Positions 52,391 to 55,305 of a stretch of 64,000 nt of DNA are shown piece after piece (positions within the stretch are counted from its first letter, which is position 1; the number at the start of each line of letters is the position of its first letter). The notes under the pieces were generated by a model, which did not search any database, was not told where the DNA came from, and saw nothing but the letters and a program-made list of their open reading frames with translations. This stretch comes from Longimicrobiales bacterium (GTDB taxonomy: Bacteria > Gemmatimonadota > Gemmatimonadetes > Longimicrobiales > Gaopeijiaceae): assembly GCA_028278645.1 (NCBI GenBank), contig JANQDZ010000002.1, positions 62,001 through 126,000 on the forward strand, in the 5' to 3' direction. The position numbers and the translations under genes are program-made.

Positions 52391-53506
52391 CTAGTCCAGT
52401 AGTCGCAAAGGCATCACCAGACAGAGGTAGTCTAATTGATCTTCACCCTCGGGAGCCACCGGTTGGAGGGTCGCAGCACGCTCTGGGGCTTTGAAGGTCA
52501 GCTTCACGTCGTCGGTGGGCATGTACCGAAGAACCTCCAACAGGTAGTTGGCGTTGAAGCCGATCTCCATTTCCTCACCCGCATAGTCCAGTTCGAGTTC
52601 GTCCTCAGCCTCGCCCAGATCGGGCGTGAGAACGTTGAGGTGCACCCTACCTTCATCGAAAACCAAGCGAATCCGATGAGTCTGGTCGCTGGCAACAACA
52701 GCCATCCTGCGGACAGCCGACTCAAGGGCACTCTTTTCGACAGTGGCCTCTTTGTCGTTGTCTTTCGGGATGACCTGTTCATAGTTCGGATAGGTACCCT
52801 CGATGAGCCGGGTGTACACTTCTGTTCCCGCTGACCGGAAGCCCAAGTGGTTCCCGTCCCGGGCCACCTCCAACTCGTCCTCCGCCTTGAACAGCCGCTG
52901 GACTTGCTGCAGTGCAGCCGGGGGAACGATAAAGTCGGCGCTGGTCGTCGTGGCTGGGCCGGCCGGAACCGCCATGCGGGCCAACCGATGACCGTTGGTG
53001 GCCACCATCTGCATCCGCCCGTCCCTCAACTCCCACAGGACCCCATTGAGTATGGGCCGGCTTTCCTCGGTAGACACCGCAAAGGAGGTGTGATGAATGA
53101 GTTTCTGAAGCTCGCTCCCCAGAATGCTCCACCCTTTTGCGAAATCCACTCCAGGAAGACTCGGAAACTCTTCGCTGGGAAGACCGTTCAGCTTGAACGA
53201 ACTTCTCCCGCACTTGAGCTCCAGTTGATCCCCCCGAGCCACAACCTCCACGGGTTGATCGGGGAGTTCCCTGGCGATCTCCTGAAGTTTCTTTCCAGGG
53301 GCGGTAAGGCTACCGGTTCCTTCCACGTCGGCTGGGACCTGTACCCGAACGGCCACATCCAAATCCGTTCCACTCATCCACACGCCCCCGTCCCTGGCCT
53401 CCAAAAGAATGTTCGAGAGAACCGGAAGGGTAGTCTTCGTGGGAATGCTGGCAGATACGGCGGCAAGACCTTGATGAAGGTTTTGTCGGGTGATCGTGAA
53501 GTTCAT
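52391..53506 (-). CDS. dnaN: DNA polymerase III sliding clamp
   Basis: A 371-residue beta clamp that tethers DNA polymerase III. It contains the standard three-fold repeats: MNFTITRQNLHQGLAAV start, LPVLSNILLEA, GLPSEEFPSLP, SRPILNGVLWE, TNGHRLARM, the TYPNYEQVIP loop and the terminal LDYLCLVMPLRL. The ATG at 53506 has GGAGG four bases ahead, and homology begins there; a longer frame exists. dnaA lies upstream on the same strand across a 285-base spacer that contains the proposed origin. Confidence 0.97.
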   Translation of the reverse strand: MNFTITRQNLHQGLAAVSASIPTKTTLPVLSNILLEARDGGVWMSGTDLDVAVRVQVPADVEGTGSLTAPGKKLQEIARELPDQPVEVVARGDQLELKCGRSSFKLNGLPSEEFPSLPGVDFAKGWSILGSELQKLIHHTSFAVSTEESRPILNGVLWELRDGRMQMVATNGHRLARMAVPAGPATTTSADFIVPPAALQQVQRLFKAEDELEVARDGNHLGFRSAGTEVYTRLIEGTYPNYEQVIPKDNDKEATVEKSALESAVRRMAVVASDQTHRIRLVFDEGRVHLNVLTPDLGEAEDELELDYAGEEMEIGFNANYLLEVLRYMPTDDVKLTFKAPERAATLQPVAPEGEDQLDYLCLVMPLRLLD

Positions 53507-53791
53507 GAATCCTCCGCTACGCCGGGGTTCGGCCTGCGCCCTTTCCACAAAACAACGTGAATCGGGTGCTTTATATTCTTCTCTATAAGAAAAAACTAGT
53601 AGTAGTAGTGCCTGTGGAAGTGTGGAGAACCGGAGCCCGGTTGTCCAATCGACCGCCGTCTACTGCTTTTTTTCTTCTCTACTCCTGTTGGTACGATTGT
53701 GGAGATCTGGACAGTTCTCTCCATGAACATCTGTTCTCCACCACTTAGTGGAAACCCCGGGGAGTTTTCCGGGGGTTTTCCCCAGACTTGT
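53507..53791 (-). other. Candidate replication origin (oriC) in the dnaA-dnaN spacer
   Basis: Read on the minus strand, an order typical of a basal unwinding system appears. First come DnaA-box-like words TTCTCCACA (53629-53621) and ACTTCCACA (53621-53613). A short GC-rich gap and a trinucleotide tract follow; the tract is (TAG)4 on the plus strand (53597-53608), like a DnaA-trio. An AT-rich block with TATAAG and TTATATT lies at 53570-53596. Further one-mismatch boxes are CTTTCCACA near 53540 and TTGTTCACA near 53788. dnaA/dnaN run left and rpmH-mnmG right, as around many origins. No GC-skew calculation was possible. Confidence 0.6.
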
Positions 53792-55180
53792 TCACACTCG
53801 CCTGGTCAGCTCCTCCTTCAGCGCCACCACCTTCCGTTGAAAGGCTGGCTCACTGGCCATGGTTTCCTCGACCTTCCGGATCGAGTGGATGACGGTGGAA
53901 TGGTCTCTCCCTCCAAAATGGGAGCCGATTTTGACGAGGGGGAGATCCAGAAGCTCTCTGATGAGGTACATGGCCACCTGGCGTGGCACCGTCAAGTCCT
54001 TTGTTCGGCGCTTCGACGCCAGGTCTTCCGGATCCACTCCCCACTGATGGGCCACGGCCGACTGGATGCTCTCCGGAGTCACTCGGGACACGCTCTCTGG
54101 AGCCTTTGACCCCAAGACCCCTTGTAGGGCGGCCTTGGCCAAAGACACTGTGATTTCCAGGTTTTTCAGGGATGAGTAGGCCAGGAGCTTGATGACTGCT
54201 CCCTCCAGCTCCCGGACGGAAGAAGTGCAGGACTGGGCGATGAAGTCGATGACCTCCGTGTCCAGAGTGAGGTTGTCGTCAGCAGCTTTTTTCCTGAGGA
54301 TGGCGACCCGGGTTTCGTAGTCCGGCACCTTGATGTCCGCCACCAGGCCCCACTCGAATCTGGAGACTAAACGTTCCTCCAAACCGGGTATCTCCTTGGG
54401 AGGCCGGTCGCTGGTCAGAACGATTTGTTTGTGAGCATCGTAGAGAGCATTGAAGGTGTGGAAGAATTCCTCTTGGGTTCTCTCCTTCCCTTCCAAGAAA
54501 TGCACATCGTCCACGAGGAGGAGATCCATTTGGCGATACCGCCGCCGGAACTCGGGCATGGTCCCCTGCTGAATGGAGGTGACGAGCTCGTTCGTGAACT
54601 GTTCCGACGGGACGTAGGCCACTCTTTTTGACGGCGATTTGTCCGAGATGGCGTTCCCTATGGCGTGCATGAGATGGGTTTTTCCCAAACCGACGCCGCC
54701 GTACAGGAACAGGGGGTTGTACATACGAGCTGGTTTCTCGGCCACAGCGGAGCAGGCTGCAGCCGCCAGTTGGTTGTCTCCTCCGACCACGAATCGGTCG
54801 AAGGTGTAGCGACGGTTCAGGCCGGGGTCAGGAAGTCCCGCGGCCTCCAGCGCGTCGTGACCAGGGGTGGCCCGGTCGGTTGACGCCGGACTTGTGAGCT
54901 CGACGGTAGGAACCGGAGGAAAGGAGGGGGAGTCTCCAGCAGAGAACGAGATCGAGAGGTGACGCCCTGCAATCTTCGATGCGGCCTCTTCCAGGATGGT
55001 TCCGTACTTGTCCTCCAGCCATTCGACGTGGAACTGGCTCGGGGCCTCCACGAGTAGGCCTTGGTCGGAAAGGGCAACCGGATGTGTCCTCGCAAGCCAG
55101 GTGGTGAAGGCCTGCTCCGGAAGCCCGGCCTGGACCACCTGAAGGATTCGGGACCAGAGTTCGGAAGCCGTGAGCTCCAT
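53792..55180 (-). CDS. dnaA: Chromosomal replication initiator protein
   Basis: A 462-residue AAA+ initiator. It shows the N-terminal helix-loading domain (ELWSRILQVVQAGLPEQAFTTWL), Walker A LYGGVGLGKTHLMHAIGN, Walker B LLLVDDVHFLEGKERTQEEFFHTFN, sensor LTSDRPPKEIPGLEERLVSRFEWG, and the DnaA-box-binding signature FGGRDHSTVIHSIRKVEE in domain IV. A Pro/Ser-rich linker near residues 80-110 is domain II. Ten residues before the stop are basic as usual. The start at 55180 has GTC-rich surroundings and no strong ribosome site, but homology begins there. Confidence 0.97.
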   Translation of the reverse strand: MELTASELWSRILQVVQAGLPEQAFTTWLARTHPVALSDQGLLVEAPSQFHVEWLEDKYGTILEEAASKIAGRHLSISFSAGDSPSFPPVPTVELTSPASTDRATPGHDALEAAGLPDPGLNRRYTFDRFVVGGDNQLAAAACSAVAEKPARMYNPLFLYGGVGLGKTHLMHAIGNAISDKSPSKRVAYVPSEQFTNELVTSIQQGTMPEFRRRYRQMDLLLVDDVHFLEGKERTQEEFFHTFNALYDAHKQIVLTSDRPPKEIPGLEERLVSRFEWGLVADIKVPDYETRVAILRKKAADDNLTLDTEVIDFIAQSCTSSVRELEGAVIKLLAYSSLKNLEITVSLAKAALQGVLGSKAPESVSRVTPESIQSAVAHQWGVDPEDLASKRRTKDLTVPRQVAMYLIRELLDLPLVKIGSHFGGRDHSTVIHSIRKVEETMASEPAFQRKVVALKEELTRRV

Positions 55181-55305
55181 TGACGTCGGTGCTGGGTGAA
55201 AGAGGTCTTAAATTGGGGGCTGGCAAGCTATTCGGCGAATGTGGAAAAGTCAATTTCAGCCAGATTATCCGGGCGCAAGCCCATGGAAAAACAGGAGTTT
55301 CGGGG

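Follow-up and report, generated by a model that had tools for sequence, protein, structure and literature searches.

The intergenic region between dnaA and dnaN is very probably a chromosomal replication origin with the core of a basal unwinding system (BUS), i.e. tandem DnaA boxes, a short spacer, DnaA-trios and an AT-rich block. A BUS-type oriC had already been proposed in a sequence-only reading of this DNA, and the proposal is now supported by three independent lines of evidence: a geometry of the motif that is conserved in relatives, the position of the GC-skew switch, and the domains and residues of the encoded DnaA. The predicted origin is well supported and ordinary in kind; what deserves the attention of specialists is an additional, inverted putative DnaA box beyond the AT-rich block.

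The window, by which we mean the whole analysed stretch of 64,000 bases, corresponds to positions 62001-126000 of contig C18 (130,937 bp) in a 4.9 Mb assembly of 103 contigs. The candidate origin and the two genes next to it are located as follows.

52391-53506, minus strand: dnaN, DNA polymerase III sliding clamp, 371 aa (Pfam DNA_pol3_beta, _2 and _3).
53507-53791, minus strand: candidate oriC, the dnaA-dnaN intergenic region, 285 bases, with the GC-skew minimum 0.33 kb away.
53792-55180, minus strand: dnaA, initiator protein, 462 aa, with domains I, III and IV (Pfam DnaA_N, Bac_DnaA, Bac_DnaA_C).

The placement of the candidate between dnaA and dnaN given in the sequence-only reading was thus exact to the base. 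Its statement on divergent gene directions has to be corrected, as dnaA and dnaN are co-directional. The point of divergence lies at about 55.2 kb, between dnaA on the minus strand and rpmH, rnpA, yidC, mnmE and mnmG, which follow on the plus strand from about 55.4 kb (rpmH and mnmE were identified by reading the sequence). The nearest named records of the DnaA protein are from Gemmatimonadetes MAGs with 70% identity, which assigns the organism to the Gemmatimonadota. ParA-like and ParB-like open reading frames, likewise assigned by reading the sequences, occur on C18 about 10-12 kb beyond dnaA and speak for an origin here; parS-like sites were not found within the window, which speaks against it.

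Within the intergenic region the following elements were assigned.

53734-53742, plus strand: weaker upstream DnaA-box-like word TTCTCCACC in opposite orientation, forming an inverted repeat with box 1.
53698-53706, minus strand: weaker upstream DnaA-box-like word ATCTCCACA, in which the box 1 region is repeated in direct orientation.
53621-53629, minus strand: putative DnaA box 1, TTCTCCACA, the upstream member of the tandem pair, with a position conserved in relatives.
53613-53621, minus strand: putative DnaA box 2, ACTTCCACA, sharing 1 bp with box 1 and with the cores 8 bp apart, in the same register in Gemmatimonadota and Bacillota.
53609-53612, minus strand: spacer GGCA, 4 nt, a length also found in most Bacillota scanned and in almost every relative from the window's family.
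53597-53608, plus strand: four DnaA-trios (5'-TAG-3' four times, i.e. 3'-GAT-5' four times), whose columns are more strongly conserved than any others here.
53551-53596, no strand assigned: AT-rich block, putative DNA unwinding element, with a core at 53564-53596 of 70% A+T.

Along the minus strand TTCTCCACA is followed by ACTTCCACA, GGCA, CTACTACTACTA and the AT-rich block, so that the trios lie on the plus strand as TAGTAGTAGTAG and run 3'-GAT-5' away from the boxes. Boxes, short gap, four trios and AT-rich block are all found where the sequence-only reading had put them. In-frame triplets of the plus strand are, from 3' to 5', GAT GAT GAT GAT CAA AAA, which gives six 3'-NAN-5' triplets in the correct strand and direction, four of them GAT, where a BUS requires at least three. 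According to the search rules described in PMC8287927, the best box may deviate from TTATCCACA by at most two mismatches and its tandem partner by at most four, followed by a spacer of 0-16 bp and at least three NAN triplets. The region agrees with these rules. Compared as 9-mers with TTATCCACA, box 1 has one mismatch and box 2 three, with the TCCACA core kept in box 2; the trios begin 4 bp from box 2 and 12 bp from box 1. The AT-rich element that a BUS carries directly past the trios is represented by 53564-53596, where an A+T content of 70% compares with 39% in the window and only 0.19% of the 33-mers of the window are equally AT-rich.

The boxes had been described as imperfect with one or two mismatches. 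A lineage-specific variant of the DnaA box, also suggested there, is only weakly supported, the CCACA cores being intact and the DnaA helix-turn-helix canonical. Since both boxes fit the consensus of the relatives with its TCCACA cores, an unusual DnaA box is not needed. The single-strand fold of the dnaA-dnaN region (z -2.6) reflects GC-rich dyads and did not enter the evidence.

The box-spacer-trio motif exceeds the expectation by chance. Exactly repeated TAGx4 occurs once in the window, where about 0.33 matches would be expected by chance even with two mismatches allowed. The combined score of boxes, spacer and trios was 26.2, whereas none of 400 dinucleotide-preserving shuffles scored above 19.5, a result to be taken as a check of strength and not as an independent discovery, because the scorer was written after the relatives had been seen. 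In the complete 4.9-Mb assembly the pattern CCACANNTCCACAN{2,6}CTACTAC gave one match and the reversed control none.

The dnaA-dnaN regions of about 75 Gemmatimonadota loci were compared, and the arrangement of boxes, spacer and trios is present in most of those sampled. Among the 55 loci with a 4-base spacer the trio columns hold 1.1-2.0 bits and both box cores 0.9-1.8 bits, compared to 0.0-0.3 bits in the columns 22-40 bases upstream. As the sequence between the motif elements is unconserved, this conservation is not merely due to recent common descent. A search for CCACAN{2,6}CTACTACTA was positive in 62 of 395 Gemmatimonadota genomes, and matches with a known position of dnaA mostly adjoin this gene. 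Literature searches brought up no description of the DnaA boxes or trios of this phylum; PMC11237797 contains predicted ori and skew only.

Several deviations were observed. Loci of family f4 (L150-L158, L187) exhibit strongly diverged boxes, e.g. TCACCCACA-ATTTCCCCG, next to nearly perfect trios, so the predicted boxes and trios differ in evolutionary rate in this family. In L183, L184, L185 and L005 the tract CTATGATGA or CTATGATGACGA replaces CTACTACTACTA; the putative trio tract of this lineage is altered in triplet phase or in sequence. No clear box-trio motif was found between dnaA and dnaN in the f5 loci L163, L164 and L171, the origin of which may be located elsewhere or altered. With these three loci and the four changed tracts, the motif is not universal in the phylum. 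A second dnaA-like gene with 62% identity and a box-trio region of its own was detected in an assembly with 6% contamination (G001:C524:3480-4853, L087), probably on a foreign contig.

The second line of evidence is the GC skew. Because the assembly consists of 103 contigs, skew was drawn on C18 and on a relative of the window's family in a single contig (G006, 4,224,903 bp), from which 60 samples of 20 kb each were taken at intervals of 70 kb. On the 131-kb contig C18 the cumulative skew is lowest at position 54121 of the window, which is 0.33 kb away from the candidate origin. In the relative its sign changes from minus to plus in the interval 3.08-3.15 Mb, which includes the position of dnaA (3.124 Mb); the reverse flip near 1.02 Mb is about 2 Mb, or about half a chromosome, away. 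Both results locate the region at the switch between leading and lagging strand, as is expected of a BUS. A skew minimum elsewhere, named in the sequence-only reading as the finding that would speak against an origin here, was not observed.

The third line is provided by the initiator itself. The best solved match of DnaA is 8btg, the B. subtilis protein (E 2.8e-130), and in the alignment the arginine finger R274 corresponds to R264, whereas V200 takes the ssDNA-binding position of I190, a conservative change that keeps the residue hydrophobic. B. subtilis R264 and I190 act in strand separation (PMC8287927). Together with the intact helix-turn-helix signature GGRDHSTVIHS, the protein has the ssDNA-binding and arginine-finger residues asked of the cognate DnaA of a BUS, and thereby those for binding single strands and for oligomerisation. 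Contig C41 carries the gene for the helicase operator DciA. A further protein, of 684 aa, contains two tandem Bac_DnaA AAA+ domains and lacks both DnaA domain I and the helix-turn-helix (G000:C26:24253-26307, minus strand; L147:2254-4308). Its gene adjoins a DUF4388-TPR protein and a pseudouridine-synthase-like open reading frame, and relatives at E <= 1e-60 occur in 31 of 101 Gemmatimonadota genomes; an Hda-like regulator is one guess for its function.

By analogy to the B. subtilis mechanism (PMC6669920, PMC10721633), DnaA would bind the tandem boxes at 53613-53629 as double-stranded DNA. From there, a DnaA-ATP filament would grow past the 4-nt spacer and reach the four 3'-GAT-5' trios, capturing and stretching the plus strand. 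The AT-rich block would then open towards dnaN, followed by helicase loading, probably aided by DciA. DnaA on the far-side box would most likely cooperate across the bubble.

Two other readings of the region were considered. DnaA also regulates genes, and the tandem boxes with trios are found about 100 bp upstream of dnaN, so they could be read as a DnaA-controlled promoter or leader element of this gene instead of an origin. A promoter would not be expected to conserve trios exactly in strand and spacing; moreover, the distances between boxes and trios are fixed while those to dnaN vary, and the skew switch is located here. We give this reading hardly any credence. Somewhat less remote, though still very improbable, is that unwinding takes place between dnaA and rpmH, with the dnaA-dnaN region as the DnaA-binding regulatory part of a bipartite origin. 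It is based on a further box.

55240-55248, minus strand: perfect DnaA box TTTTCCACA upstream of dnaA, appearing as TGTGGAAAAGTCAAT on the plus strand; a similar TGTGGAAAAGTCAATC word is present upstream of dnaA in L111 and L128.

B. subtilis and C. difficile have origins of the bipartite kind (PMC7561715). In C. difficile, however, it is the half between dnaA and dnaN to which unwinding has been mapped (PMC7561715), and between dnaA and rpmH a trio tract was not found, TAGx4-like words being confined to 53594-53611 in the window. The box at 55240-55248 is possibly the second half of a bipartite origin or an autoregulatory site.

The putative element that goes beyond the described BUS lies past the AT-rich block.

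53541-53549, plus strand: putative far-side DnaA box CTTTCCACA, located between the AT-rich block and dnaN and opposite in orientation to boxes 1 and 2; within the window's order it is conserved, and its distance from the trios is fixed.

Such a box (score of at least 6) was found in 30 of 36 loci of families f1-f3, compared to a mean of 4.0 and a maximum of 10 in shuffles. In 26 of these 30 the box starts at a distance of 46-54 nt from the first base of the trios, compared to 0.6 and never more than 4 in shuffles. One helical turn further away, at 58-60 nt, it is found in the window's genus and in G036. The prediction was fixed beforehand and then tested on a hold-out of 27 further loci from 26 genomes, several of which share a genus; 15 of the 20 newly fetched were picked for the trio motif, which does not include the far-side box. 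Here the box was present in 19 of 27 loci, and in 18 of them its place was the predicted one, compared to 0.6 and never more than 3 in shuffles. Pairwise identity between genera was 0.69 in the box compared to 0.27-0.29 on the flanks; the value for the box is inflated by the choice of the best-scoring 9-mer, for which reason the shuffle controls matter.

Outside these families the box was not clearly enriched in f4, f5, f6 and f9 (3/22; shuffle mean 1.0, maximum 4), and in Bacillota it was not found at a fixed place (6/28; shuffle mean 3.3); at 59-60, however, a perfect TGTGGATAA occurs in the two Bacillota loci L008 and L049. Searching by exact pattern for the trio together with the far-side box matched 5 of 154 genomes of the window's order, mostly at chance places, and was replaced by the scored test as too strict. 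A mirror-image trio tract past the AT-rich block was also considered and dismissed, because it does not adjoin the far-side box and does not occur in the window. Short inverted trio partners, GTAGTA and CAGCAG, were seen past the AT-rich block in families f4 and f5 (e.g. L153, L160-L162), and TAGTA is modestly enriched overall (16/63 compared to 6.5 expected).

In many relatives the far-side box is 38-48 nt from the start of dnaN, which would suit a DnaA-responsive site that controls this gene and is unrelated to unwinding. In the hold-out, however, the box follows the trios, with a distance of 47-52 in 18 of 19 loci, while its distance to dnaN is spread over 38-85. The near-constant first and the variable second distance speak for a box that belongs to the unwinding region, and we regard control of dnaN as rather unlikely. 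Probably the far-side box is a second docking point for DnaA, phased to the filament, and it may bound the bubble, aid assembly on the other strand or serve a second helicase. Only tentatively do we extend this to a two-sided origin throughout the window's order, in which the AT-rich block would have the BUS on one flank and on the other an inverted box at constant helical phase (47-52 nt from the trios, or about 59 nt in the window's genus) that would dock DnaA for the opposite strand, placing a second helicase or limiting the bubble. DnaA boxes flanking the unwinding element on both sides are known at some other origins, so that the far-side box is an elaboration and not a new kind of origin.

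The BUS has been described and tested before (PMC6669920, PMC8287927, PMC10721633), and the predicted core is similar to the one of the B. subtilis oriC, formed by DnaA-boxes 6/7 and trios (PMC6669920, PMC10721633). Both have two co-oriented boxes, a short GC-rich gap, 3'-GAT-5' trios in the same strand and direction and an AT-rich block towards dnaN. The 1-bp overlap of the boxes and the spacer of 4 recur in the Bacillus loci scanned; with a similar script, Bacillota loci gave TTATCCACA-ATATTCACA-GCCC-CTACTACTATTACTAC with an overlap of one and a spacer of four, a geometry identical in most of those scanned. The differences are boxes further from TTATCCACA in the window, four perfect GAT trios where mixed tracts are common among the scanned Bacillota, and the extra inverted box at a fixed distance past the AT-rich block, which was not seen at a fixed place in those Bacillota. 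C. difficile oriC2 (PMC7561715) shares the position between dnaA and dnaN and has a trio tract, CTACTACTATTACTACTA, before its experimentally mapped unwinding region; unwinding was demonstrated there in vitro with purified DnaA, whereas in the present region it is predicted from the sequence. BUS elements were predicted in 1,755 of 2,070 bacterial origins (PMC8287927), and the window adds a case from Gemmatimonadota, a phylum that the main text of that study does not name.

With this assignment an origin is placed for a phylum with few cultured members. An opening machinery of the Bacillus type would be common to Gemmatimonadota and Bacillota down to the exact base spacing, which supports an ancient origin of this machinery. 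The phased inverted box past the unwinding element would add a concrete, testable element and may offer a natural case for the loading of a second, oppositely directed helicase.
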